51,075 nucleotides of DNA from Candidatus Gastranaerophilales bacterium (GTDB taxonomy: Bacteria > Cyanobacteriota > Vampirovibrionia > Gastranaerophilales > Gastranaerophilaceae): positions 1 to 51,075 of the forward strand of contig CALUYU010000008.1 in assembly GCA_944325075.1 (NCBI GenBank), given 5' to 3'. Shown here in pieces: positions 10,898 to 22,663 of the stretch. The notes below the pieces were generated by a model, which saw nothing but the letters and a program-made list of their open reading frames with translations, ran no database searches and was not told the DNA's origin. The number at the start of each line of letters is the position of its first letter. Positions within the stretch are counted from its first letter, which is position 1. Position numbers and translations under genes: made by a program.

Positions 10898-11758
10898 TTA
10901 AAGTTTTATAATTTCATATTCACGATTTCCAAGCCCTAGTGCAGCAGCTTCTTCCACTGTATGAATTCCATTTCTGGATTCCATTCGTTTAATTAAATAG
11001 GACTTCCCGGGATCCGGAGAGTTATACACTGCATCTACACAAGCCTGGTCAATTGCAACCGGATCTGTTGAGGCAAATATCCCGATATCGGCCATTCGCG
11101 GCTCATCCGGATTATTATCACAGTCACAATCAACTGAAAGTCTGTTTGCTACATTAATATAAACTATATTTTCTTTTCCCATATAGTCCATTACGGCCTT
11201 ACAAGCCTCTGCCATGCTTTCAAGAAAAGCATTCTGGTTGGAAGACCAGCCTTGCTTTCCTGCTCCATGGATGTTTAATTTCCCGCGGGAAGAGGCAACA
11301 CCTATGGACATATTTTTCAGTGCTCCTCCAAATCCGCCCATTGCGTGCCCCTTGAAGTGAGAGAGCATTAATATTGAATTATAGTTTTTTAAGTTTTTCC
11401 CTACATAATTTTCTTTAAGGTGCTTGCCGCCAATGACCGGTAATGCAAGTTCACCGTTTTCATCCATAATATCGCAAGGCGCAATTGCCATAAAACCGTG
11501 TTCTTTCATTACTTTCCAATGATCTTTTGAATTGCAGCGCTTTCCGCCGTATGCGGTATTACATTCGACTATTGTTCCGTTGACTTTTTGGACTAATCCT
11601 TTGATCATTGCAGGCTGTAGAAAGTTATGTCCTCCGGGTTCTCCGGTTGAAAGCTTTACGGCAACCTTTGGCTTAAGATTAATATTAAGCTTTTCATAGA
11701 TTTCTTCTAAAGCTTCTGAAGATATATTCTCCGTGAAATATACTTTTGATTTTTCCAT
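10898..11758 (-). CDS. DUF362 family protein
   Basis: A 286-residue DUF362 protein of unknown biochemical role; family members are often found with ferredoxins and Fe-S proteins. It has the conserved blocks VAVKLSTGEPGGHNFLQP near 33-50, LSHFKGHAMGGFGGALKN near 134-151, IGVASSRGK, DCDCDNNP near 215 and ASTDPVAIDQACVD near 233. There is no C-terminal ferredoxin module and no signal peptide. AGAGG precedes ATG 11758. The gene lies 15 bases after the decarboxylase-cupin gene, so the two form an operon driven by the MerR-type promoter near 12864-12894. A paralog at the far end of the island (20323-21109) is about equally long but frameshifted. Confidence 0.8.
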   Translation of the reverse strand: MEKSKVYFTENISSEALEEIYEKLNINLKPKVAVKLSTGEPGGHNFLQPAMIKGLVQKVNGTIVECNTAYGGKRCNSKDHWKVMKEHGFMAIAPCDIMDENGELALPVIGGKHLKENYVGKNLKNYNSILMLSHFKGHAMGGFGGALKNMSIGVASSRGKLNIHGAGKQGWSSNQNAFLESMAEACKAVMDYMGKENIVYINVANRLSVDCDCDNNPDEPRMADIGIFASTDPVAIDQACVDAVYNSPDPGKSYLIKRMESRNGIHTVEEAAALGLGNREYEIIKL

Positions 11759-11773: not shown

Positions 11774-12817
11774 TTATTTTAATTTACTGTATTCAGCCTC
11801 ACTAACCTCTTCCAGCCATTCATTAGAACTTCCTTCAGCCGGAATTTCTATTGCAAGATGTGTAAACCAGCTGTCATGCGCTGCGCCGTGCCAGTGTTTA
11901 ACTTCGGCTGGAATATACACTACATCACCAGGATGTAATTCCTGTGCAGGTTTTCCCCATTCTTGATAATATCCGCGGCCGTTTGTTACAAGTAGAATTT
12001 GTCCGCCTTTATGGTGAATATGCCAATTATTGCGGCAGCCGGGTTCAAAAGTTACATTTCCTATAGGAACACCTTTAGTTGTCAACATATTAAGGTAGCT
12101 CTGTCCTATAAAATATTTTGCATAGGCTGTATTCTTTTCGCCTCTTGCGAAAATTTCATGATAACTGCTTTGTTTTGTTTGGTCTAAAATTTCATCAATT
12201 TGATCTTGAGTTAAGCCGGTGTTTTTACCCATTTGAATATGAGAGTTTAACTGAGGCTCAACTCCCGGGATTGTTGATAACGCTGCTATAGTAGCAATTT
12301 CTCTTTCCTGGTTTGTCAAAACTCCTCTTGCAAAAATATCCGCGAATAAATGTTCTTTTAAATAAGCATCAATTGCCGGTGCAAATTCTGCAAAAGCTCC
12401 TTTAACCGGTGCGCCTACAAGTTCTGTTTGGACTTTTGTTCCGTATTCGTTTTTGTCTGTGTCTTTGGTTAGAACTTTCCCTTCTTCTCCTAATTTGTCG
12501 GCAATCCCGTTAGCTTTTCTTGTTTCAGTCACTTGTATAAATGTGTTTATACCGTTTAAACTTCTTGGGAACCCGCAATATGCATACATTTGAACTAGAA
12601 TTTCCTTTATTTCATTAACGGTTAAACCTTCATCTAATCCTCTATTAAGTGCTTTTTCGAGATTCTGTAAGTCTCCTGATGCTGTATAAGATGCAATTGA
12701 GACAATATTTTTTTGTTTTTGAGTCAAAATTTCTTTTGCCATTGTTTTACCTCCAATTAACAATCCAAATGTTATAATCAATGTAAAAAATACTGATAAA
12801 ATCCTTTTTAAATCCAT
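11774..12817 (-). CDS. Carboxymuconolactone decarboxylase-like protein with C-terminal cupin
   Basis: A 347-residue protein with two CMD-like helical modules (about 28-115, containing YAYCGFP, and 140-232) and a cupin_2 barrel (about 250-335) with metal ligands in NNWHIHHKGG and HWHGAAH. CMD-cupin proteins of this type are common beside aldo/keto reductases and flavodoxins; their substrate is not known. From ATG 12817 (good AAGGAGAG site) the first 25 residues form a signal-peptide-like hydrophobic stretch. A second in-frame ATG at 12742, starting MAKEILTQ, has an ideal GGAGG seven bases upstream, so a cytosolic form may also be made. It is transcribed from a MerR-type promoter at 12864-12894 and followed by the DUF362 gene. 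Confidence 0.82.
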   Translation of the reverse strand: MDLKRILSVFFTLIITFGLLIGGKTMAKEILTQKQKNIVSIASYTASGDLQNLEKALNRGLDEGLTVNEIKEILVQMYAYCGFPRSLNGINTFIQVTETRKANGIADKLGEEGKVLTKDTDKNEYGTKVQTELVGAPVKGAFAEFAPAIDAYLKEHLFADIFARGVLTNQEREIATIAALSTIPGVEPQLNSHIQMGKNTGLTQDQIDEILDQTKQSSYHEIFARGEKNTAYAKYFIGQSYLNMLTTKGVPIGNVTFEPGCRNNWHIHHKGGQILLVTNGRGYYQEWGKPAQELHPGDVVYIPAEVKHWHGAAHDSWFTHLAIEIPAEGSSNEWLEEVSEAEYSKLK

Positions 12818-12902: not shown

Positions 12903-13694
12903 TTAATTTTTGTCCATACTTCCGCTTCTGAATCCCTCCAGATCAAGTGTTATATGTTTTATTCCTATATTTTTTAATGATGTTATTATGTTTTCTTTTT
13001 GGCTTAGGAGTTTGTCAAATTCATTTTTCGGAATTTCTATGCGTGCAATATTATCATGAAGGCGTAAACGGTTTGTTTTAAATCCTTTATTTGTAAGGAT
13101 TTTCTCTCCCTTTTCTATAATATCAAGTTTTTCAGGTGTAATCCTTGTATTATACGGAAGTCTTGTTGCAAGGCAAGGCGTTGATGGTTTATCAAACAAT
13201 TTAATCCCTTGTTCTTTTGCAAATTCCCTGATTTCTTGTTTCGTAATCCCAAACTTGGCAAACGGAGAGATTATTCCTGTTTCCTCAAGTGCTTTTATAC
13301 CCGGTCTGTATTCGCTTAAGTCATCAAAATTTGTTCCGTCAATTATGTATACCAATTGGTTTGATTGTGCGATTTTACTTATTTGGCTAAACAGTATTTT
13401 TTTGCAATGATAACACCGATCTTTGGGATTATTTATTATTATCTGATTTTTTAAAATATCACACTCTGCAATGGTTTGATTTACGTTGTAGATTTTGCAT
13501 AATTCTTTGGTTAAATTTATTTCTTCATCTGTTTGGAATATTGATTTAAAAGTAACAGCAAGAAATTTTTCATTAAGTTTACTGCACAAATACAGGAGCA
13601 ATGTACTATCTATACCTCCTGAAAAAGCAAGACATAAGCCTTGCTTTCCCAGTTCTTGTAAGTAATTTGTTAAGTTTGCAAATTTATTCTGCAT
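12903..13694 (-). CDS. larE: LarE, sulfur insertase for the nickel-pincer cofactor
   Basis: PP-loop ATP pyrophosphatase that thiolates the pyridinium dicarboxylate intermediate in synthesis of the nickel-pincer nucleotide. The PP-loop SGGIDS is at residues 25-30, and KPSTPCLATRLPY at 169-181 holds the Cys (C174) that corresponds to the sulfur-donating Cys of Lactiplantibacillus LarE. Two further cysteines (C94 and C97 in DRCYHC) suggest the type that binds a [4Fe-4S] cluster and can act catalytically, rather than the sacrificial single-Cys type; this is inference. At 263 residues it has the usual length. It overlaps the end of the LarMN gene by 11 bases, so it is co-translated with the lar genes. 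Confidence 0.88.
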   Translation of the reverse strand: MQNKFANLTNYLQELGKQGLCLAFSGGIDSTLLLYLCSKLNEKFLAVTFKSIFQTDEEINLTKELCKIYNVNQTIAECDILKNQIIINNPKDRCYHCKKILFSQISKIAQSNQLVYIIDGTNFDDLSEYRPGIKALEETGIISPFAKFGITKQEIREFAKEQGIKLFDKPSTPCLATRLPYNTRITPEKLDIIEKGEKILTNKGFKTNRLRLHDNIARIEIPKNEFDKLLSQKENIITSLKNIGIKHITLDLEGFRSGSMDKN

Positions 13695-14598
13695 TGACGT
13701 TTACCGTAACTTCTTTTTTGTTAAGGAATTTGCAAGCTATAAACATTATAGCTCCGGCAAAAAGTAACCCGGCAAGATTTCCGTAAACGGAAGGTATTGA
13801 TGAAAGAATTGCAGTTTTTGCCTGAACGGCTTCTGAGATGTTGTATAAAGCATATTGGGACTGCATAACAACAGAGTCTGAAATATTTAGTAATGACCAT
13901 TCCAACCCGTCAGGTTTTGATGAGGCGTATTGGGATATAATTCCTGCAAGAATAAGTGATACTCCGCCAAATGTATATGCAAGATTTTTTTGACTTACAA
14001 ATTTACCCAATAAAATTACTCCGCCGGTTACAACACCTTCTACAATTCCGATTGGAAGATGTATTAGCTGCATTAATCCGGTAAAGTTAAGCAGATTGCC
14101 TGAGATGGAGCCTGAAAGAGCGGCTTCTGCAACAACGGCAATTGATCCAAGCTGGAGGGCTATAACTGATGCAAGAATTGCGCCGGTTACAACTCTTCTT
14201 CTTTCAGCAAGAGGTTTATATACTAAAGGATATGCCACAAAACAAGCTAAAAATCCCATATTGAAAATGTTGCATCCAAGTGCAAGAAGTCCTCCGTCAG
14301 CAAAAAATACTGATTGGACAAGCAGAATTACACACATTGCAAGAAATGCTGCGTAAGGCCCTATTAATGCGGCTAATAATACCGCTCCGACAATATGCCC
14401 GCTTGAACCCGTTGACGGGATTGCAAAGTTAATCATCTGTAACGCAAAAACAAGCATTGTTAAGGTAACTGCCGGAAAGATTTTATCTTTCCCAAAGTTT
14501 TGTCTTGCCTTTTTGTAAGCATAAAATGCTGTTCCTAAAGCAACAGCTATCATAGGTATTCCTGTTACCGGACAAATTATTCCGTTTCCTAAATGCAT
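13684..14598 (-). CDS. LarMN/CbiMN-like nickel permease subunit
   Basis: Membrane substrate-binding component of an energy-coupling factor type nickel (or cobalt) importer, here with LarM/CbiM and a PDGLE (LarN/CbiN-like) segment in one protein of 304 residues. It begins Met-His (MHLGNGIICPVTGIP), the N-terminal metal-binding pair of the CbiM family. It has several membrane helices, a STGSSGHIVGA motif near 62-72, and KPDGLEWSL near 222-230 before the last helix. The RBS AAGGAG lies inside the end of larC, two bases away. No ATPase or T-component gene is in this window. The lar context argues for nickel. Confidence 0.85.
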   Translation of the reverse strand: MHLGNGIICPVTGIPMIAVALGTAFYAYKKARQNFGKDKIFPAVTLTMLVFALQMINFAIPSTGSSGHIVGAVLLAALIGPYAAFLAMCVILLVQSVFFADGGLLALGCNIFNMGFLACFVAYPLVYKPLAERRRVVTGAILASVIALQLGSIAVVAEAALSGSISGNLLNFTGLMQLIHLPIGIVEGVVTGGVILLGKFVSQKNLAYTFGGVSLILAGIISQYASSKPDGLEWSLLNISDSVVMQSQYALYNISEAVQAKTAILSSIPSVYGNLAGLLFAGAIMFIACKFLNKKEVTVNVNAE

Positions 14599-14600
14599 AA

Positions 14601-15374
14601 CTAATCTCCTTTTTCTTGTATTAACATAACTCTTAAAATAGGATTTTCATAAGGCCTTTTTCCGGCGCCGCAGCCTGTTTTTTCTATAACAAATTCCTCA
14701 GGAAGCCTTTCTCCTGTATAAAGGGCTGCTGCGATAGCCGCGCCGGTCGGAGTAATCATTTCTCCGTCATTTTGTGTAATTTTAACCGGAATTTTGTATT
14801 TTGTAAGAATTTTACAAACCGCCGGAACCGGTACCGGTAAAGTTCCGTGCTGGCATTTTACAAATCCCTGCCCTTCCGTTAATGTTGAAAAATATACTTT
14901 ATGAACCCCTATATTGTCAAACAATACTGAAAAACTTACTATATCAGCAATTGAATCAATTGCTCCGACTTCATGAAAATGTACATCTTTTATATCTTTA
15001 CCGTGAACTTCCGCTTCTGCTTCCGCCACAATCTTAAATATTTTTTTTGCTAAGTTTTTAGCATTTTCCGTAATTTCGGCTTTATCAATAATCTGATTGA
15101 CATCATCAAGATTTCTGTGGAAATGGTGAGCTTCTTCATCATGGTGATGGTGCGAATGACCGGTGTGATGTTCTGGTAATATTACGTCAAAATCTGTTGC
15201 TTTTATAGAATTTATCATAACGTTAGATATTTTATATGTAAATTCGTTTTCAAGATTCATTGAGGCTAATGCTTTTTCAAGCTTGCTTTTATCAGCCCCG
15301 AGATCTAAAAGAGCTGCAACTGACATATCTCCTGATATTCCTGATTTACATTCAAAATATAAACTTTTAACCAT
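14601..15374 (-). CDS. larC: LarC, nickel insertion protein, first domain only
   Basis: Related to the nickel-inserting cyclometallase LarC. The N-terminal block YFECKSGISGDM, the central VHFHEVGAIDSIADIV and the ITPTGAAIAAALYTG block fit the LarC1 part. A His-rich stretch (HHTGHSHHHHDEEAHH) near 64-80 can bind Ni. The protein stops at 257 residues after GAGKRPYENPILRVML, where known full-length LarC continues into the CTP-binding LarC2 domain. In Lactiplantibacillus larC that junction is a frameshift site, but here the next gene begins two bases after the stop, leaving no room for LarC2. Either a stand-alone LarC2 is encoded elsewhere or this lineage does without it. Confidence 0.82.
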   Translation of the reverse strand: MVKSLYFECKSGISGDMSVAALLDLGADKSKLEKALASMNLENEFTYKISNVMINSIKATDFDVILPEHHTGHSHHHHDEEAHHFHRNLDDVNQIIDKAEITENAKNLAKKIFKIVAEAEAEVHGKDIKDVHFHEVGAIDSIADIVSFSVLFDNIGVHKVYFSTLTEGQGFVKCQHGTLPVPVPAVCKILTKYKIPVKITQNDGEMITPTGAAIAAALYTGERLPEEFVIEKTGCGAGKRPYENPILRVMLIQEKGD

Positions 15375-15377
15375 GTT

Positions 15378-16058
15378 TTATTCTCCGACAATTTTTCTAT
15401 TTATCTGACTTGCACTGTAACCGGCATTAAATCCGTTATCAATATTTACTACTGTCATACCCTCCGCGCATGAATTTAGCATTGTAAGCAGTGATGACAG
15501 CCCTTTAAAAGAACTTCCGTAACCAACAGATGTTGGAACTGCAATTACCGGAGAATCAACCATTCCGGTTATAATCCCGGCCAATGCCCCTTCCATTCCG
15601 GCAACGGCTATTATTACGTTTGCCTTTCTAATTTCTTCAATTTTAGAAAATAGTCTGTGTATGCCCGCAACGCCTATATCATAATACCTTTTTACATTGC
15701 TTCCGTAAAATTCTGCTGTTTCACAAGCCTCTTCTGCTACCGGAATATCTCCGGTTCCGCCCGTGCAAACGGCAATTTCACCGACAAGTGGAATTTGTTT
15801 TTTTACAAGAGTTACAACTCCGGCGCTTTCATTGTATTTCAATTCTTTAAATTCTTTTGTTAAAATTTTGGCCTGATGGGAGGATACTCTTGTTCCAATA
15901 ACATTTTGTCCGTGTTTTTTAAATTCAGAAAAAATTTTTATCAGCTGCTCATCAGTTTTGCATTCACAAAAAACCGCCTCAGAGGCGCCTCTGCGTTTAA
16001 CTCTTTCTATATCTAATTTTGCAAAATCTATGTCTATGTATTTTTCATTTTTTGGCAT
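15378..16058 (-). CDS. larB: LarB, pyridinium carboxylase/hydrolase
   Basis: PurE-like enzyme that carboxylates and hydrolyses nicotinic acid adenine dinucleotide in the first step of nickel-pincer cofactor synthesis. The C-terminal PurE-like half has CTGGTGDIPVAEEA near 98-112, VAGMEGALAGIITG near 154-167 and the PVIAVPTSVGYGSSFKG block near 171-187. At 226 residues it is slightly shorter than the best-known LarB. The MerR-type -10 box (TAAAAT, 16070-16065) ends only 6 bases before ATG 16058, predicting a leaderless transcript from that promoter. An AAGGAG at 16077-16072 lies 13 bases upstream of the start and can serve read-through mRNA from tatC. Confidence 0.88.
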   Translation of the reverse strand: MPKNEKYIDIDFAKLDIERVKRRGASEAVFCECKTDEQLIKIFSEFKKHGQNVIGTRVSSHQAKILTKEFKELKYNESAGVVTLVKKQIPLVGEIAVCTGGTGDIPVAEEACETAEFYGSNVKRYYDIGVAGIHRLFSKIEEIRKANVIIAVAGMEGALAGIITGMVDSPVIAVPTSVGYGSSFKGLSSLLTMLNSCAEGMTVVNIDNGFNAGYSASQINRKIVGE

Positions 16059-16064
16059 ATGTTT

Positions 16065-16095
16065 ATTTTACTCCTTGATAGCAACTATCAGTCAA
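16065..16095 (-). promoter_or_regulatory. MerR-type promoter/operator of larB
   Basis: On the minus strand TTGACT (16095-16090), a 19-bp spacer with the dyad GATAG-TTG-CTATC, then TAAAAT (16070-16065). The site overlaps the tatC stop codon (the TGA inside TTGACT). Transcription would begin at about the larB ATG. Confidence 0.72.
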
Positions 16096-16805
16096 GAATT
16101 TTTGTTCTTTTTTGAACATAAAAGTCCAAGTTCAAATAAAAGATATGTTGGCAGCCCGAGCGTAATTTGGCTTATTACATCCGGAGGCGTTAGTATTCCC
16201 GCAATTATCAATATAATTACTATTACGTAAGGTCTTTTGTCGCTTATTGTTTCATATGAGACAAGCCCTGATTTTATTAAAGCATGGGTTACAAGCGGCA
16301 TTTGAAACATTACCCCAAAAGATAATGACATTATTAATGCAAGATTTACTATATTGGATATATTAAACATTGCATTTATATTTTCTCCTGAAAAACTTAG
16401 TCCGAATTTTATTACGAACGGCAGCATTATAAAAAGGCAAAATAACACTCCGCTTATAAAAAGCAGGCTTGATATTGTTACTAAGGATTTTATAAATTTT
16501 TTTTCATTATCGTATAATGCCGGAAGTATAAAATCCCATATTTTTTTTGCAATATAAGGAAAGCACACAACCAGATCAAGAATGAAAGCCGTTTTTATTT
16601 GAACAATAAATACTTCCATTGGTGAAAAATAGTTTAGCTTAATTCCGGTACCGTTTAGAATTATGTCTATAACCCAATTTAAAACAGCAGGGGCCGCAAA
16701 AAATACAAACGGAAACACAACACATAATGAAATGATGCATTTCAACAGAGTTTGTCTTAAAGCTTCAAGATGTGAAATTAAACTCTCGTTATTTTCTTCA
16801 CACAT
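16092..16805 (-). CDS. tatC: TatC, twin-arginine translocase receptor subunit
   Basis: Six-helix inner-membrane receptor for folded proteins with twin-arginine signals. It begins with the typical cytoplasmic SLISHLEALRQTLLKCI block, then has FSPMEVFIVQIKTAF in the first periplasmic loop and helix 2, FPYIAKKIWDFILPALY, and a Gly/Pro-rich final helix region (LIIAGILTPPDVISQ). At 237 residues it is of normal length. It starts 2 bases after tatA. The Tat-signal aldo/keto reductase lies two genes upstream in the same direction, an obvious client. Confidence 0.92.
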   Translation of the reverse strand: MCEENNESLISHLEALRQTLLKCIISLCVVFPFVFFAAPAVLNWVIDIILNGTGIKLNYFSPMEVFIVQIKTAFILDLVVCFPYIAKKIWDFILPALYDNEKKFIKSLVTISSLLFISGVLFCLFIMLPFVIKFGLSFSGENINAMFNISNIVNLALIMSLSFGVMFQMPLVTHALIKSGLVSYETISDKRPYVIVIILIIAGILTPPDVISQITLGLPTYLLFELGLLCSKKNKNS

Positions 16806-16807
16806 AA

Positions 16808-17041
16808 TTAATTTTCCGGACGCTCCTTATCCTTTGACGGATCATATTCTTCAGGTTTATCCATAGAATCTTCAAGAGCTTCTTTTAAACCTTTTGCCTC
16901 ATCTTTTAGAATATTTTTTGCTTTTTTATATTCATAAGATGCTCTTCCGAGTGCTCTTGCAATTTCCGGAATTCTTTTCCCGCCGAAAAGCAGCAGAATT
17001 ACCACTAATATCAGTAATATTTCAGTAAAACCAAGTGACAT
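16808..17041 (-). CDS. tatA: TatA/TatE family translocase subunit
   Basis: A 77-residue protein with one N-terminal membrane helix ([30 protein letters not shown]), the conserved FGGKRIPE hinge, an amphipathic helix, and a charged acidic/basic tail (KDKERPEN). It forms the translocation pore with TatC. There is no separate TatB, so this is a minimal TatAC system. Confidence 0.93.
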
Positions 17042-17062: not shown

Positions 17063-18349
17063 TTATAATGTTCTTTGCTCGTTTACTCCGAAAACCTCAA
17101 TGGCTCCAAAGTGGCAGGCATTTTTGCAAGCGCCGCAGCCTATGCACTTTGAGGCATTAAGTATCGGTGTTTTATCATCAGATTTAATTATAGCATGTAC
17201 AGGGCAGACTTCTGAGCATACTCCGCAATGAGTACATTTGTCCTCATTTATCATTGCCATTGCAATTCTTGTTTTTTGTTTTTCTTCAAGAGAAAGTTTT
17301 TTTATCGCACCGCTTGGGCAGACTTCCGAACATTTATTGCAGTCATATTTACATGCTCCTTTTGAGTAGTCAATATGTACAACACCGTAATTCTCATCTG
17401 CTTTTGCAATAATTTTATTAGGACAGTTTTCTACACATAAATTGCAATTTAAGCATTTATTGAGAAACCGTTCTTTATTTCCGGCGCCCGCAGGTAATAT
17501 TACATCTTTTATCTTTTCGCTAATTTTGTCTTTTAATTCCAATCCTGCTTTAACCATTATTCCCAGCAATGCTGCTGCTGTTGAGGCAATAATTATTTGG
17601 CGTCTTTCCGGGTTGAATTTTACGCTTCCCTTTGGCTTTATTCCGTATTTTAAGGCATTCTTAGGACAAAGAGTTATACATTTTAAACATTTTATACAAG
17701 TTTCATTATCAACGTTTTTTTCTTTGGAATTAATGCATCCGGCAGGGCAGTTTCTCTCACACAGCCCGCAAGATACACATTCATCAGACATATAAATCTT
17801 ATTTAATGATATTTTTGAGATTAATCCAAGTACAGTCCCGACTGGGCAAAAGTTTGTACAGAAGATTCTATCTTTAAAGATTACCGCTGCTATAACCGCC
17901 GCAAGCACAATAAGTCCGGCTACAGAAATGGAAAAAGCCGAACCAAATATTGTATAAGGATCTATGTATCGTATTGCAACTGCTGTTCCGGCGAAGAAAA
18001 TTCCCCAGACAATTGCTGATATAAAATATTTTAAAGGAAAATTTACCTGACGGCGGCATTTATTTTTAACAAACAGTCCCTTTATAAATCCTAACAGCTC
18101 CTGGAGTATTCCAAATGGACAAATCAAAGAGCAGTATACTCTTCCGCATATAAAAGTCAGGAGGGCAATGAATAAAAATAAGATTAATGCTGTTACGGAA
18201 AAATCCGTTATAACTCTTTGAAACAGTGGTAAAAACTGTATGTCTAAAATTCGTACAGGATAAAATATCCCGGTAATTCTCAAAACTGCTAAAATAAATA
18301 TTATTATGGCTGCTGATAATCTTATCCTATACAATAATTTATTTTTCAT
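17063..18349 (-). CDS. NapH/NosR-like membrane polyferredoxin
   Basis: A 428-residue membrane-bound Fe-S protein. About five hydrophobic segments lie in residues 10-175 with two NapH-type motifs, CGRVYCSLICPFG near 68-80 and CTNFCPVG near 163-170. Several [4Fe-4S] ferredoxin motifs follow: CVSCGLCERNCP, CIKCLKCITLCP, CLNCNLCVENCP, CKYDCNKCSEVCP, CTHCGVCSEVCP and CIGCGACKNAC. A further hydrophobic segment around 250-270 follows an RR, so the second ferredoxin block may lie on another side of the membrane or be anchored. The likely role is moving electrons between quinone or cytoplasmic donors and envelope redox enzymes. It lies 8 bases after the Tat-exported reductase, its probable partner. 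Confidence 0.82.
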   Translation of the reverse strand: MKNKLLYRIRLSAAIIIFILAVLRITGIFYPVRILDIQFLPLFQRVITDFSVTALILFLFIALLTFICGRVYCSLICPFGILQELLGFIKGLFVKNKCRRQVNFPLKYFISAIVWGIFFAGTAVAIRYIDPYTIFGSAFSISVAGLIVLAAVIAAVIFKDRIFCTNFCPVGTVLGLISKISLNKIYMSDECVSCGLCERNCPAGCINSKEKNVDNETCIKCLKCITLCPKNALKYGIKPKGSVKFNPERRQIIIASTAAALLGIMVKAGLELKDKISEKIKDVILPAGAGNKERFLNKCLNCNLCVENCPNKIIAKADENYGVVHIDYSKGACKYDCNKCSEVCPSGAIKKLSLEEKQKTRIAMAMINEDKCTHCGVCSEVCPVHAIIKSDDKTPILNASKCIGCGACKNACHFGAIEVFGVNEQRTL

Positions 18350-18357
18350 TATTTAAC

Positions 18358-19587
18358 CTATCTTTTGTCTCCTACTTCCTTAACTGTTTCGTCAACTTTT
18401 TTAAGCAGTGCAGGAATATCGAGTCCCTGCGGGCAATTTTTTGAACACAAATGACAGTTAATACATTTGTCAGCCCGTTCATTTTCTTTCAGGGCTTTAT
18501 AGTTTACACCGAACATAAAACCGTTGCCGTTAGATTTGTAAACGTTATACAGTCCGAATATTGCCGGAATGTTAATTCCTCGCGGGCAAACTTCCATACA
18601 ATATCTGCATGCTGTACAGTTTATTGCGCCTTGAGACTGAATAATCTGGGCAACTTCTTTAGCTGTTTTTTCTTCAGCCTCTGTAAATTCTCTGAAATTT
18701 GTGAATGTGTCAATATTTTCTTTTAGCTGCTGAAGGTTGCTCATTCCGCTCAAGATAGTGAAAACTCTTTTTTTACTTGTAACCCATCGCAGGCCGAATG
18801 AGGCTTGTGTATCATCAGGGCAATCTTCTTTAAGTTTTGCCGCTGCTTTTTCCGGAAGGTTGCATAGTCCGCCTCCTCTCAGAGGTTCCATTACAATTAC
18901 TGGAACTTTAGCCTCATCAGCGATTTCGTATAATTCTTTTCCGTTAATTACTTCCCAGTCAAGGTAGTTAATCTGGAGCTGGCAGAAATCCCACTTATGC
19001 TCGTTAATTACTTCTCTTAACATGTCCGGATCACCATGGAATGAAAATCCAAGGTGTTTAATTTTCCCTTCTTTTTTTAGTTTCAGAAGCTCACCGTACA
19101 TATCGTTGTCGCGGTAATTTTTTATAGTATTTACATTTATATTATGAACCATGTAGTTATCGAAATAGTCGACTTGGCACTTTTTCAGCTGTTCGTTAAA
19201 AATTTTATGGACATCTTCCGGTGAATTTACAAGATATGCAGGGTTTTTATCCGTTAGGAAAAAGCTTTCGCGCGGATATTTTTTCAAAATTTCTCCAATG
19301 GCATTTTCAGATTTGCCTTCAACATACATGTAAGCAGTATCAAAATAGTTCGCACCGTGTTCCATTGCGTACTCAACCATTTTGTCAAGTTCAACCATAT
19401 CAATTTCACCGTTGCGCATAGGTAATCTCATGCATCCAAGCGCAATCAGCGGGATTTCAAGATTGTCAAATTTTCTTTTGATTACTTGTTTTTCAACTTT
19501 CTTAACTTCTTTTTTCCCGCAGCCGGTAAGCAATGCAGCTCCGCCTAAGGCCAGTGCTGAGTTTATTATAAATTCTCGTCGTTTCAT
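18358..19587 (-). CDS. Tat-exported lipoprotein aldo/keto reductase with ferredoxin tail
   Basis: A 409-residue aldo/keto reductase. The N-terminus MKRREFIINSALALGGAALL is a twin-arginine signal followed by the lipobox LTGC (C23), so the protein is probably exported folded and lipid-anchored. The AKR barrel has the catalytic tetrad Asp83, Tyr88 (NYFDTAYMY), Lys114 (LTDKNP) and His148 (YMVHNI). Two C-terminal [4Fe-4S] motifs follow at C324-C334 and C375-C385. Outside the cytoplasm NAD(P)H is not available, so electrons may come through the ferredoxin tail from the polyferredoxin neighbour; this is inference. A dyad like those of the three MerR-type promoters lies just upstream, but with GAGGGA (the RBS) where the -10 would be. 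Confidence 0.87.
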   Translation of the reverse strand: MKRREFIINSALALGGAALLTGCGKKEVKKVEKQVIKRKFDNLEIPLIALGCMRLPMRNGEIDMVELDKMVEYAMEHGANYFDTAYMYVEGKSENAIGEILKKYPRESFFLTDKNPAYLVNSPEDVHKIFNEQLKKCQVDYFDNYMVHNINVNTIKNYRDNDMYGELLKLKKEGKIKHLGFSFHGDPDMLREVINEHKWDFCQLQINYLDWEVINGKELYEIADEAKVPVIVMEPLRGGGLCNLPEKAAAKLKEDCPDDTQASFGLRWVTSKKRVFTILSGMSNLQQLKENIDTFTNFREFTEAEEKTAKEVAQIIQSQGAINCTACRYCMEVCPRGINIPAIFGLYNVYKSNGNGFMFGVNYKALKENERADKCINCHLCSKNCPQGLDIPALLKKVDETVKEVGDKR

Positions 19588-19633: not shown

Positions 19634-20212
19634 TTACAATTTCAATTTGTTTATCCAGGCTCTTATTTCACTTTCTTTTGCAGAATCTTCATAAGTTGTA
19701 TAACCTTCAGTTACAGTTGCGCCTTTTGCAAGATTTTGCATATCAGTGTAAGTTGCAGAGGCACCGCCGCCGCCGTGTGTGCAGAAAGGAACTATTATTT
19801 TCCCGCTGAAATCATTTTTGCTCAAGAATGTTTTAACCGGACCGGCCATTGTGTACCACCAAACAGGTGTACCCACAAAAATTATATCATAATCTTTTAC
19901 ATTCCCGTTATCAACAAGTTCCGGTCTTATATCTTTTTGTTTTTCTTCCTCGGCAAGTGATACAACTTCATTGTAATCTTTTGAATATTCTTTTTTAGGC
20001 TTTATTTCAAATAAGTCACCGTTTGTAAGATTTTGAATCTTTTCTGCTACTGCTCTCGTATTGCCGTTATATGAATAGTATGCAATTAAAATTTTCTTAT
20101 CACCCATATCTATCTCCTTTCCGCCTTGAATATTAGAATAGATCACGTAACATAACAGTCCTAAAATTGCTAAAATTACTATAATTAAAGCATAAATTAA
20201 TGTTTTTTTCAT
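19634..20212 (-). CDS. Membrane-anchored flavodoxin-like protein
   Basis: A 192-residue protein with an uncleaved-looking N-terminal membrane helix (TLIYALIIVILAILGLLCYVIY, about 4-25) and then a flavodoxin fold: ILIAYYSYNGNTRAVAEKI near 41-59 (phosphate loop for FMN), GTPVWWYTMAGPVKTFL near 114-130, and PFCTHGGGGASATYTDMQ. It probably carries electrons with FMN; the anchor suggests it works at the membrane. It lies 46 bases upstream of the aldo/keto reductase in the same direction. Confidence 0.85.
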   Translation of the reverse strand: MKKTLIYALIIVILAILGLLCYVIYSNIQGGKEIDMGDKKILIAYYSYNGNTRAVAEKIQNLTNGDLFEIKPKKEYSKDYNEVVSLAEEEKQKDIRPELVDNGNVKDYDIIFVGTPVWWYTMAGPVKTFLSKNDFSGKIIVPFCTHGGGGASATYTDMQNLAKGATVTEGYTTYEDSAKESEIRAWINKLKL

Positions 20213-20322: not shown

Positions 20323-21109
20323 TTATTTTATTTTAATAAGCTTATATTTCCGAACTCCGACACCTAAATCAGCAGCAGCTTCAACAGTGTGTATTCCGTG
20401 TTTTTCTTCAATTCGTTTTATTAAAGAGGCTTTCCCTTTATCATCTGCCTGGTATACAAGATCAACGCATGCCTGATCAAGTGCAACCGGATCATCGGAG
20501 GCAAGTATTCCGATATCAGCGATTTCCGGTTTTGTAGGATTGTTGTTGCAGTCACAGTCGATTGACATGTTATTCATAACGTTAATAAATGTAATTTTCC
20601 CATCAAAATAGTCCATAACCGACTTATCCGCGTCAGCCATTGCTTCTAAAAATTTATCCTGTTCACATGTCCATATTTTTTCGGGTTCGCCTGCTCCGTG
20701 GATGTATGCTTTCCCGTATGAAGAGGCAACACCTATGGATAAATTCTTAAGTGCTCCTCCAAAACCGCCCATCTGATGCCCTTTAAAGTGGGAAAGCACA
20801 AGCATAGAGTCATAATTTTTAAGATGTGACCCTACATAATTGACTTTGATTTGTTTCCCTGAAGGTACCGGAAGTTCCATCTGGCCCTCGGAATCCATTA
20901 TATCTACATTTGCAATTTTATCAAATCCGTGTTCTTTTATTGCTTTTTTGTGCTCTTCAGTGGTATTTCTTCTTCCTTCATAAGCTGTGTTGCATTCAAC
21001 GATTGTTCCGTCAACGTATTTTACCAGGTCTTTTATAAATTCCGGCTGGAGAAAATTATGTCCGCCAGGTTCGCCTGAATGGAGTTTTACGGCTGTTACC
21101 TGGTAATTC
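20323..21109 (-). pseudogene. DUF362 part of a frameshifted DUF1893-DUF362 gene
   Basis: This frame encodes nearly all of a DUF362 protein closely resembling that at 10898-11758 (VKLHSGEPGGHNFLQPEF, LSHFKGHQMGGFGGALKN, DCDCNNNP, ASDDPVALDQACVD). It has no start codon of its own before the conserved N-terminus. The missing first part (SIVYFTPEITSSGLVEIYKTL) is in the upstream DUF1893 frame. Deleting one base from the AAA on the minus strand at 21112-21110 would restore one continuous reading frame (LNKNYQVTAVKLHSG). The first internal Met in this frame is at 20898, deep in the domain. It is either a real frameshift mutation or a sequencing error. Confidence 0.75.
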
Positions 21110-21673
21110 TTTGTTTAAAGTCTTATATATTTCAACAAGACCGGAAGATGTTATTTCCGGAGTGAAATATACAATTGAAGTATCAGGATGCATTTTTTTA
21201 TAAATCAGACCGTATGCTTCAGTCGCATTTACTGCATTTTTTGTTAACTCTTCAAACGGGCATAGGCCTGAGTTTGTTTTATTCTGAATTTCTTTTACAA
21301 TGTTTTTGGCTTCATACTTGATATGATTTTTTTTTAAAATTTCAATAGCCGGTTTTGAGATTGTGTTTGCATACACATAGTCTGCACCTCCGTATACATA
21401 AAGATATGCGGCCGCACGTCCTACAACTTTATCAAAAATATATGTTCCTTCAAAATTATTGTCTTCCAGGTATATTAATAAAGGGTCTAAATTATGTTCA
21501 TTGTAGGTTTTAATTCCTTTGTCTTTATAGATCACTAATGTAGCTGTTTCAAGCTGTTTTATAAGCATTTCCTTAATGTTATCCGGAAGATCTGTTTGTT
21601 TGGCAAAAGCCGGTGAAAATATGCAAAAAATAAAGCTGCATAATAATATTAGTGTTTTAAGTATCTTTTTCAT
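21056..21673 (-). CDS. Exported DUF1893 protein running into frameshifted DUF362
   Basis: From ATG 21673, with AAAAGGGG upstream, the protein starts with a clear signal peptide (MKKILKTLILLCSFIFCIF, cleavage probably after AFA). It continues as a DUF1893 domain (LVIYKDKGIKTYNEHNLDPL, DKVVGRAAAYLYVYGGADYVYA, SGLCPFEELTKNA). It then enters the start of DUF362 (TSIVYFTPEITSSGLVEIYKTLNKEL) before going out of frame and stopping at 21056. The intact form would be a roughly 450-residue DUF1893-DUF362 fusion. DUF1893 has no known reaction. The open frame begins further upstream at 21724, but that part overlaps the promoter and lacks an RBS. Promoter: MerR-type site at 21715-21745. Confidence 0.72.
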   Translation of the reverse strand: MKKILKTLILLCSFIFCIFSPAFAKQTDLPDNIKEMLIKQLETATLVIYKDKGIKTYNEHNLDPLLIYLEDNNFEGTYIFDKVVGRAAAYLYVYGGADYVYANTISKPAIEILKKNHIKYEAKNIVKEIQNKTNSGLCPFEELTKNAVNATEAYGLIYKKMHPDTSIVYFTPEITSSGLVEIYKTLNKELPGNSRKTPFRRTWRT

Positions 21674-21714
21674 ATAATTATTCCCCTTTTCATTAATAAA
21701 ATTAATATAATAAA

Positions 21715-21745
21715 ATTTTAACACTTAAGAGTTACTCTAAGTCAA
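21715..21745 (-). promoter_or_regulatory. MerR-type promoter/operator of the DUF1893-DUF362 gene
   Basis: On the minus strand TTGACT (21745-21740), an exactly 19-bp spacer containing the dyad AGAGTAACTCT, then TAAAAT (21720-21715). It is the upstream-most of the four related sites and could drive the whole island. Confidence 0.77.
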
Positions 21746-21763: not shown

Positions 21764-22663
21764 TTACAATTTTTTGTCAAATTTATCGTAAAGTTTTTCT
21801 AAGAATAATTTTGCAGCAGGTGAAAATATCTGTGACTTTTTCCAGACAATATCAAGTCCGGACTCAAGTTTTGGTGAGAGCGGGCGGAAACAAAGATTAG
21901 TGCCGCCGGATTCTTTAATAAGTTTATCGAGGCTTACCGCATAACCAATGCCTGATTCTACCATAATAGCCGCGTTATATACAAGATTATAAGTCGCTTT
22001 TATATTCAATTTATCAAACTCTTCCCCAAACCAATCCAAAAATCCGCTGTCTGCCGAATATTTCTTTGACATTTGCCTTGAGGCTATCAGCGGAACTTTA
22101 ACTAAATCCTCAAGTTTTATTACTTCTTTTTTCGCGAGCGGACTGTCTTTACGCATAATAACTCCCCAAACATCTTTTTGCGGCATTGTTATATGGTCGT
22201 ATTTAGACAAGTCTATTGGTTGGATTAAAATTCCGAAATCCAAAAGTCCTTTATCAAGTTTTTCGGTTACATCTTCAGCGTTTCCGCTGTATATGTGGAA
22301 CTTTATATCGGGGTAGTCATTTTGAATGTTTTTCATAACTTCTGCCACATATTTCATAGAATCTGTTTCCCCGCAGCCTATGTAAATATCTCCGGCTATT
22401 ATCTCACTTATGGAGTTGAATTCTTCCTCTGTTTTTTCTACAAGTTCAACTATTTCTTCTGCCCGTTTCCTTAAAATCATACCTTCCGGAGTTAGTTTTA
22501 TTTTATATTTTCCCCGAATAAGGAGTTTTTGCTTTAGTTCTTTTTCAAGATCCTGAAGCTGTCGTGAAAGTGTTGGCTGCGTTAGATGGAGAGCATTTGC
22601 CGCTGCTGTTATGCTGCCTTCCCTTGCAACCGTTAGAAAATATCTTAATACCCTAAGTTCCAT
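21764..22663 (-). CDS. LysR-type transcriptional regulator
   Basis: A 299-residue regulator. The N-terminal winged helix-turn-helix has the family pattern (ELRVLRYFLTVAREGSITAAANALHLTQPTLSRQLQDLEKEL, residues 2-43). The effector domain begins near 90 (GDIYIGCGETDSM). It resembles LysR proteins found next to aldo/keto reductase and carboxymuconolactone decarboxylase genes. It lies at the head of the redox island, transcribed in the same direction, 90 bases before the DUF1893 start, and divergent from the alpha/beta hydrolase at 22831. The effector is unknown. Confidence 0.9.
   Translation of the reverse strand: MELRVLRYFLTVAREGSITAAANALHLTQPTLSRQLQDLEKELKQKLLIRGKYKIKLTPEGMILRKRAEEIVELVEKTEEEFNSISEIIAGDIYIGCGETDSMKYVAEVMKNIQNDYPDIKFHIYSGNAEDVTEKLDKGLLDFGILIQPIDLSKYDHITMPQKDVWGVIMRKDSPLAKKEVIKLEDLVKVPLIASRQMSKKYSADSGFLDWFGEEFDKLNIKATYNLVYNAAIMVESGIGYAVSLDKLIKESGGTNLCFRPLSPKLESGLDIVWKKSQIFSPAAKLFLEKLYDKFDKKL

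Follow-up and report, generated by a model that had tools for sequence, protein, structure and literature searches.

The nickel-pincer cofactor NPN is made by LarB, LarC and LarE, as in Lactiplantibacillus plantarum and Synechocystis PCC 6803, and LarC also exists in a split form of the L. plantarum type. The glucose-fructose oxidoreductase of Zymomonas is a Tat-exported oxidoreductase that is loaded with its cofactor before export. Canonical LarC requires CTP (PMC11796402). Of the prokaryotic genomes covered by a published survey, about 15% encode LarB, LarC and LarE but not LarA; these larA-less genomes have already been presented as an open problem, with a cofactor user that is said to be unknown and expected to differ in fold (PMC11796402). 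Here we analysed a window of 51,075 nucleotides from a Candidatus Gastranaerophilales bacterium together with its own genome (G000, 2.26 Mb, 99.99% complete). Our best reading is a LarA-independent, LarC2-less pathway of the nickel-pincer type, whose operon also encodes a candidate enzyme with a predicted LarA fold.

The lar operon and its short larC

Flavodoxin, aldo/keto reductase (AKR), Fe-S protein, tatA, tatC, larB, larC, permease, larE, CMD-cupin and DUF362 genes form one closely spaced block on the minus strand. The features are:

10898-11758 (-): DUF362a, predicted LarA-fold protein, 286 aa (PF04015, E 9.8e-49)
11774-12817 (-): exported carboxymuconolactone-decarboxylase/cupin protein, CMD-cupin (PF02627, PF07883, N-terminal signal)
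12903-13694 (-): larE, with a CXXC...C arrangement (RCYHC, TPC) (TIGR00268, E 4.9e-86)
13684-14598 (-): fused CbiM and PDGLE nickel/cobalt permease (PF01891, E 4.6e-47; PF13190, E 1.7e-10)
14601-15374 (-): larC, LarC1 domain only, 257 aa, His-rich loop retained (PF01969, TIGR00299)
15378-16058 (-): larB (NF033503 LarB, E 6.3e-85)
16092-16805 (-): tatC (PF00902, E 1.9e-57; single match in the genome)
16808-17041 (-): tatA, 77 aa (identified by sequence, flanked by tatC and the Fe-S gene; same position in relatives)
17063-18349 (-): polytopic membrane protein with multiple 4Fe-4S sites (Fer4, Fer4_5; conserved in the operon)
18358-19587 (-): AKR with C-terminal ferredoxin-type Fer4 domains (PF00248, E 1e-42; Fer4)
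19634-20212 (-): membrane-anchored flavodoxin (PF12682, E 9.6e-32)
20323-21724 (-): second DUF362 gene; product DUF1893-DUF362 with signal peptide, reading frame interrupted by a frameshift (PF08973)
21764-22663 (-): LysR-type regulator upstream of the cluster (PF03466/PF00126; in the same place in G011)

LarB scores 284 bits to NF033503 (cut-off 175) and LarE 288 bits to TIGR00268 (cut-off 150). The cysteines of LarE have the same CXXC...C arrangement as the motif of the [4Fe-4S]-type LarE of Thermotoga (PMC9283937). Neither CbiQ nor CbiO lies beside the CbiM-PDGLE permease, and the AKR starts with a twin-arginine lipoprotein signal (MKRREFIINSALALGGAALLTGC). The second DUF362 gene lies in two ORFs in different frames (21056-21724 and 20323-20898, frameshift near 21060-21100) and is a single ORF of about 450 aa in G011 and other relatives (for example L037); its split is either an assembly error or a recent inactivation. 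More than 20 genomes from three families share the order AKR-FeS-tatA-tatC-larB-larC1-permease-larE, usually with the flavodoxin gene, and CMD-cupin homologues are found in the lar loci L185, L136 and L145.

The larC product covers positions 1-235 of the 375 of PF01969 (1-246 in a read-through whole-genome search) and aligns with all 165 positions of the LarC1 model TIGR00299. Two bases after its stop the permease gene begins. The genome contains a single PF01969 match. A LarC2 profile derived from nine relatives has no hit there even at E<=1, whereas the unlinked LarC2 encoded by the relative G132 is picked up by this search as a control. Based on the PF01969 and LarC2 profile searches, a full-length larC or a stand-alone LarC2 elsewhere in G000 is excluded. 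Downstream of larC, LarC2 was found in none of the frames, and the locus does not have the frameshift-split arrangement of the L. plantarum type. That an assembly error or a programmed frameshift conceals LarC2 has a precedent in that split form, and some Lachnospirales do carry a second, separate PF01969 match. With the next gene only two bases away, LarC2 in no frame nor elsewhere, and the same end in independent assemblies, this explanation is nevertheless exceedingly improbable.

No match to PF09861 above the cut-off was obtained in G000 or its relatives (144 genomes in total), and a distant LarA in the bacterium's own genome was rejected on this basis. The initial annotation had described a larC that stops at 257 residues after its first domain and two bases before the next gene, a LarC2 encoded in no frame, adjacent larB, larC, permease and larE genes, and a window with neither a transporter ATPase nor LarA. 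This description stands, for the ATPase within the window and for LarA across the whole genome. Of what it had proposed to look for, neither a stand-alone LarC2 or LarA nor the full-length larC or assembly frameshift that would have overturned it was found.

The short larC is under purifying selection. Compared with G011, the larC of the window has a dN/dS of about 0.08 (0.068/0.86), and values for larB, larC, larE and the permease (G000 versus G011) range from about 0.08 to 0.14. All aligned intact short LarCs terminate after a GxGKRxYxNPxLRVM segment, at the same alignment position. Given the common end point, the dN/dS values and the sharing across the family, the short LarC is a stable protein variant and not an error. 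A few relatives (G027, G029, G048 and G057) show a visibly eroding operon, as would be expected if the lar genes were a decaying remnant with a LarC truncated because it is no longer needed. The selection on all four genes, and the identical end point with intact neighbours in more than 20 genomes, make this reading very unlikely. As a stand-alone domain LarC1 is modelled by AF2 with a pLDDT of 90.8. A fold search with this model gave no significant match, and the full-length LarC structures 12bi-12bl, which were turned up by sequence search, were absent among its listed hits.

Distribution and phylogeny of the short LarC

The short form is present in every PF01969-positive member of the family beyond a remnant and in two further families of the order, and full-form LarC occurs in other families of the order and class. 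A contig scan with local re-analysis added loci that have a short LarC and no LarC2 from Pseudobutyrivibrio, other Lachnospiraceae, Clostridia and Bacilli. When the whole genomes behind these loci were searched, ten had neither a LarC2 nor a second PF01969 match, two had an unlinked LarC2, and one had a second LarC in the full form. Within the Lachnospirales, 182 of 344 genomes have a PF01969 match, which in ten of them is one short match and nothing more. LarA is found in 0/10 of the Lachnospirales with short LarC versus 49/172 of those with other LarC, a difference that is suggestive only (p=0.06). Unlinked LarC halves lie on different contigs in G132 (L083 and L084), G146 and G153. On viral contigs there are three LarC relatives, with LarC2 as the next gene in all three, and a LarA scan of viral contigs gave no match.

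In a tree of the LarC1 domain the window LarC and all these loci form one clade with 100% support. The Gastranaerophilales sequences are a subclade with 100% support, sister to one short Bacilli LarC and nested among Bacillota, a position that suggests horizontal transfer of their larC. Within the clade LarC2 has been lost several times: at least four changes are forced by starred branches, and the parsimony count of 11 takes in some split genes and contig ends. This repeated loss beside intact larB and larE suggests that LarC2 is dispensable in the LarC clade of the window. The earlier statement that LarC2 is needed for nickel insertion is established for canonical LarC only, and the question whether relatives share the short LarC is answered by a LarC2 missing family-wide and repeatedly in Bacillota.

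Alternatively, an unrecognised protein could supply the LarC2 function in trans, which would leave canonical CTP-dependent nickel insertion and ordinary NPN intact. The unlinked LarC2 genes of the relatives G132, G146 and G153 would be in line with such an arrangement, as would the stand-alone LarC2-like protein MK0293 in the PDB. Against this, the profile that recovers the LarC2 of G132 has no match in G000 at E<=1; among the short-LarC Gastranaerophilales in the 144 genomes searched it has one marginal match, in G028 (E 0.03); and the ten further short-LarC genomes are without a second PF01969 match. We therefore regard complementation in trans as rather improbable.

DUF362 and the exported AKR as candidate cofactor users

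Downstream of larE the operon encodes DUF362a, whose AF2 model, built with 13 homologues, has a pLDDT of 94.3. In a Foldseek search with this model all 16 matches at E<=0.001 are LarA enzymes. Comparison with LarA structures gives Z scores of 13.8-15.6 over 196-220 residues, the next fold reaching 4.3, and DUF362a is thus predicted to have the LarA fold. His138, Lys148 and His164 are invariant in the family alignment (13 proteins). Profile alignment with three LarA proteins (hhalign, E 1.7e-4) places them on LarA His174, Lys184 and His200 (His175, Lys185 and His201 in the alignment), with spacings of 10 and 16 identical to those of LarA. In LarA these are the catalytic His, the cofactor-tethering Lys and the nickel-ligand His, respectively, and the Lys-to-His spacing is the same in Mar2 and GntE2 (PMC7583248). 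The alignment spans the H-K-H region only; outside it lie LarA Arg75 and His108, the residues for cofactor phosphate/substrate binding and the second catalytic His.

PF09861 (Lar_N) does not match DUF362a at E<=0.001. Other HKH-type DUF362 proteins give sub-threshold PF09861 hits over the H-K-H region (for example L199, E 6e-4). Solved structures gave no hit when searched by sequence with DUF362; the likeness to LarA is revealed only by fold comparison and profile-profile alignment. DUF362 and LarA belong to the same Pfam clan, CL0471, where DUF362 has served as an outgroup only (PMC11770544), and in the literature searched we found no paper that proposes DUF362 as a user of the nickel-pincer cofactor. 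Based on the modelled fold and the residue register, DUF362a is a candidate user of a nickel-pincer-type cofactor. The initial annotation had left the enzyme using the cofactor as unknown, which holds insofar as no LarA is present, but the DUF362 gene now provides a candidate; the redox genes of the same regulon, which it had also named as candidates, are conserved operon partners of the lar genes.

Gene neighbourhoods and co-occurrence were then compared. The larC and DUF362 genes are neighbours in several phyla: DUF362 directly adjoins larC in G227, G343 and L198 and larB in L199, and it lies in the same cluster as the lar genes in L185, L136, G493 and the window. For the Lachnospirales (344 genomes), HKH-type DUF362 was taken from the matches listed, to about E 5e-50, so that the counts are lower bounds, and match length served to call the class, in agreement with the motif at 30/30 loci checked. 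Among these listed matches LarC accompanies HKH-type DUF362 in 53/67 genomes and is missing from 14/67, similar figures being obtained for LarA (49/59 with and 10/59 without LarC). LarC is also present in 129 of the 277 genomes without a listed HKH-type DUF362.

The DUF362-LarC link is clade-specific. Among the matches listed, HKH-type DUF362 is found in 22/26 genomes with a LarC of the window's clade versus 19/120 with other LarC (p=3e-11, a statistic that ignores deeper phylogenetic dependence), whereas LarA shows no clade preference (6/26 versus 29/120). The 26 genomes fall into 15 clusters at 70% LarC identity, of which 12 hold a listed HKH-type DUF362, and near-duplicate genomes thus do not explain the co-occurrence. 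Three Gastranaerophilales genomes (G024, G063 and G081) have HKH-type DUF362 without LarC. A DUF362 of Parabacteroides distasonis from a plasmid search (L408:11848-12873), 63% identical, has a Tat-type signal and keeps the HKH residues; no lar gene is annotated in the 12 kb around it. Selenomonas ruminantium has a DUF362 with such a signal beside flavodoxin, CMD and AKR genes (L410:9809-10942).

As DUF362 is present in only seven of the 23 Gastranaerophilales genomes with short LarC, it cannot be the sole user of the cofactor. In operon relatives without DUF362 the user must be the exported AKR or an unseen protein. An AKR orthologue is found in 23 genomes, 21 of which have the short larC; in the two exceptions the operon runs off the contig end (G013) or the assembly is fragmented (G034). 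The Fisher test of this association assumed a universe of 94 genomes (G000-G085 and eight others) and is approximate. TatC is missing from over half of the Gastranaerophilaceae and, where found, lies in or beside the redox operon. It is single-copy in the family, and its position in or beside the operon makes the Tat system appear nearly dedicated to it. The AKR or its paralogue is present in 27/31 TatC-positive genomes, and no family member has an intact AKR without TatC. We found no literature on Tat-exported Fe-S AKRs.

These associations allow a different reading, in which the product, for want of LarC2, is no longer NPN but P2TMN or a compound with another metal, and serves the Tat-exported Fe-S AKR as a tightly bound hydride carrier replacing diffusible NAD(P)H. 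The AKR is the most constant partner of the short larC, AKR and lar genes decay jointly in G048, G057, G027 and G029, and in a Bacilli MAG a different membrane-anchored AKR directly follows a short larC (L139:6413-7363). The latter is a second case in which an exported AKR adjoins LarC1. However, in seven genomes a paralogue 48-50% identical to the AKR occupies the same FeS-Tat cassette where lar genes are absent, so that the AKR as a class is independent of the lar genes. These lar-free cassettes of Tat-AKR, Fe-S and TatAC genes (L104-L110, from G081, G074, G044, G065, G073, G040 and G024) are a natural control for residues. Comparison of 19 lar-linked with 6 lar-free AKRs revealed no obvious group-specific anchor Lys or His, and the catalytic Asp-Tyr-Lys-His is retained in both groups alike; as a cofactor binder by sequence the AKR was rejected for this reason, and its link to the lar genes is one of operon conservation only.

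A similar Tat AKR is moreover accompanied by a full-length LarC in L185, from a rumen proteobacterium, where FeS, tatC, Tat-signal AKR, larB, full-length larC and larE genes follow one another with CMD-cupin and DUF362 alongside. As L185 has much the same gene set together with a full-length LarC, the pathway product is suggested to be the same with and without LarC2, and this gene set is the strongest argument for an identical product. We consider a non-NPN product for the AKR unlikely.

Proposed pathway and comparison with known systems

The reading that we prefer, with a probability of roughly 45%, is a LarA-independent NPN branch in which LarC1 is enough to insert the metal and the cofactor is used by DUF362, the exported AKR or both. 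LarB would carboxylate and cleave the nicotinate dinucleotide, the iron-sulfur type LarE would thiolate the LarB product, Ni (or Co) would be imported via the CbiM-like permease and the metal would be inserted by LarC1 alone, for which we know of no mechanism. An ancestral Gastranaerophilales larC would have lost LarC2, and with it the CTP-binding site, and further losses would have occurred in several lineages of Bacillota whose LarC belongs to this clade. We infer that DUF362 binds the finished cofactor and carries out a reaction with it; the cofactor would be tethered by a protein that is predicted to have the LarA fold and that has equivalents of the tethering Lys and Ni-ligand His as well as one catalytic His out of two. 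The hydride chemistry of DUF362 may be coupled with the exported redox chain of Tat-signal Fe-S AKR, Fe-S membrane protein and flavodoxin. In operon relatives without DUF362 the exported AKR would be the remaining candidate user.

More specifically, HKH-type DUF362 may be a second family of enzymes using the nickel-pincer cofactor, or a relative of it made by LarC1, with LarC1 completing the cofactor without CTP or LarC2; we put this forward tentatively, as somewhat short of an even chance. If true, it would solve where the cofactor goes in larA-less genomes. The predicted fold, the residue register, the operon adjacency in several phyla and the clade co-occurrence make the role of DUF362 directly testable. 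A short LarC that evolved repeatedly and is under selection would mean that the CTP-dependent cyclometallase half is dispensable or replaced by another activity.

Compared with the LarBCE systems of L. plantarum and Synechocystis PCC 6803, the window has the same LarB, LarC1 and LarE families, their adjacency and a Ni/Co permease, but its LarC is without LarC2, LarA is absent, and the operon is built around Tat-exported redox proteins and DUF362. With the racemases and epimerases of the LarA superfamily (PF09861, DUF2088) DUF362a shares the predicted fold, the register and spacing of the His/Lys/His residues and the clan CL0471; in contrast, it is not recognised by Lar_N and has 286 aa compared to the 390-480 aa of LarA chains. 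Single-histidine LarA homologues of Blautia wexlerae and Streptococcus plurextorum bind NPN via Lys and His and have a substitution at one catalytic His (PMC12611868). They provide a precedent for the scaffold, although their His174 is replaced while DUF362 retains that position. As with the glucose-fructose oxidoreductase of Zymomonas, a folded, cofactor-bearing redox enzyme would pass through Tat, but the enzyme of the window combines an AKR fold with ferredoxin domains and is encoded with its own TatA and TatC and the lar genes.
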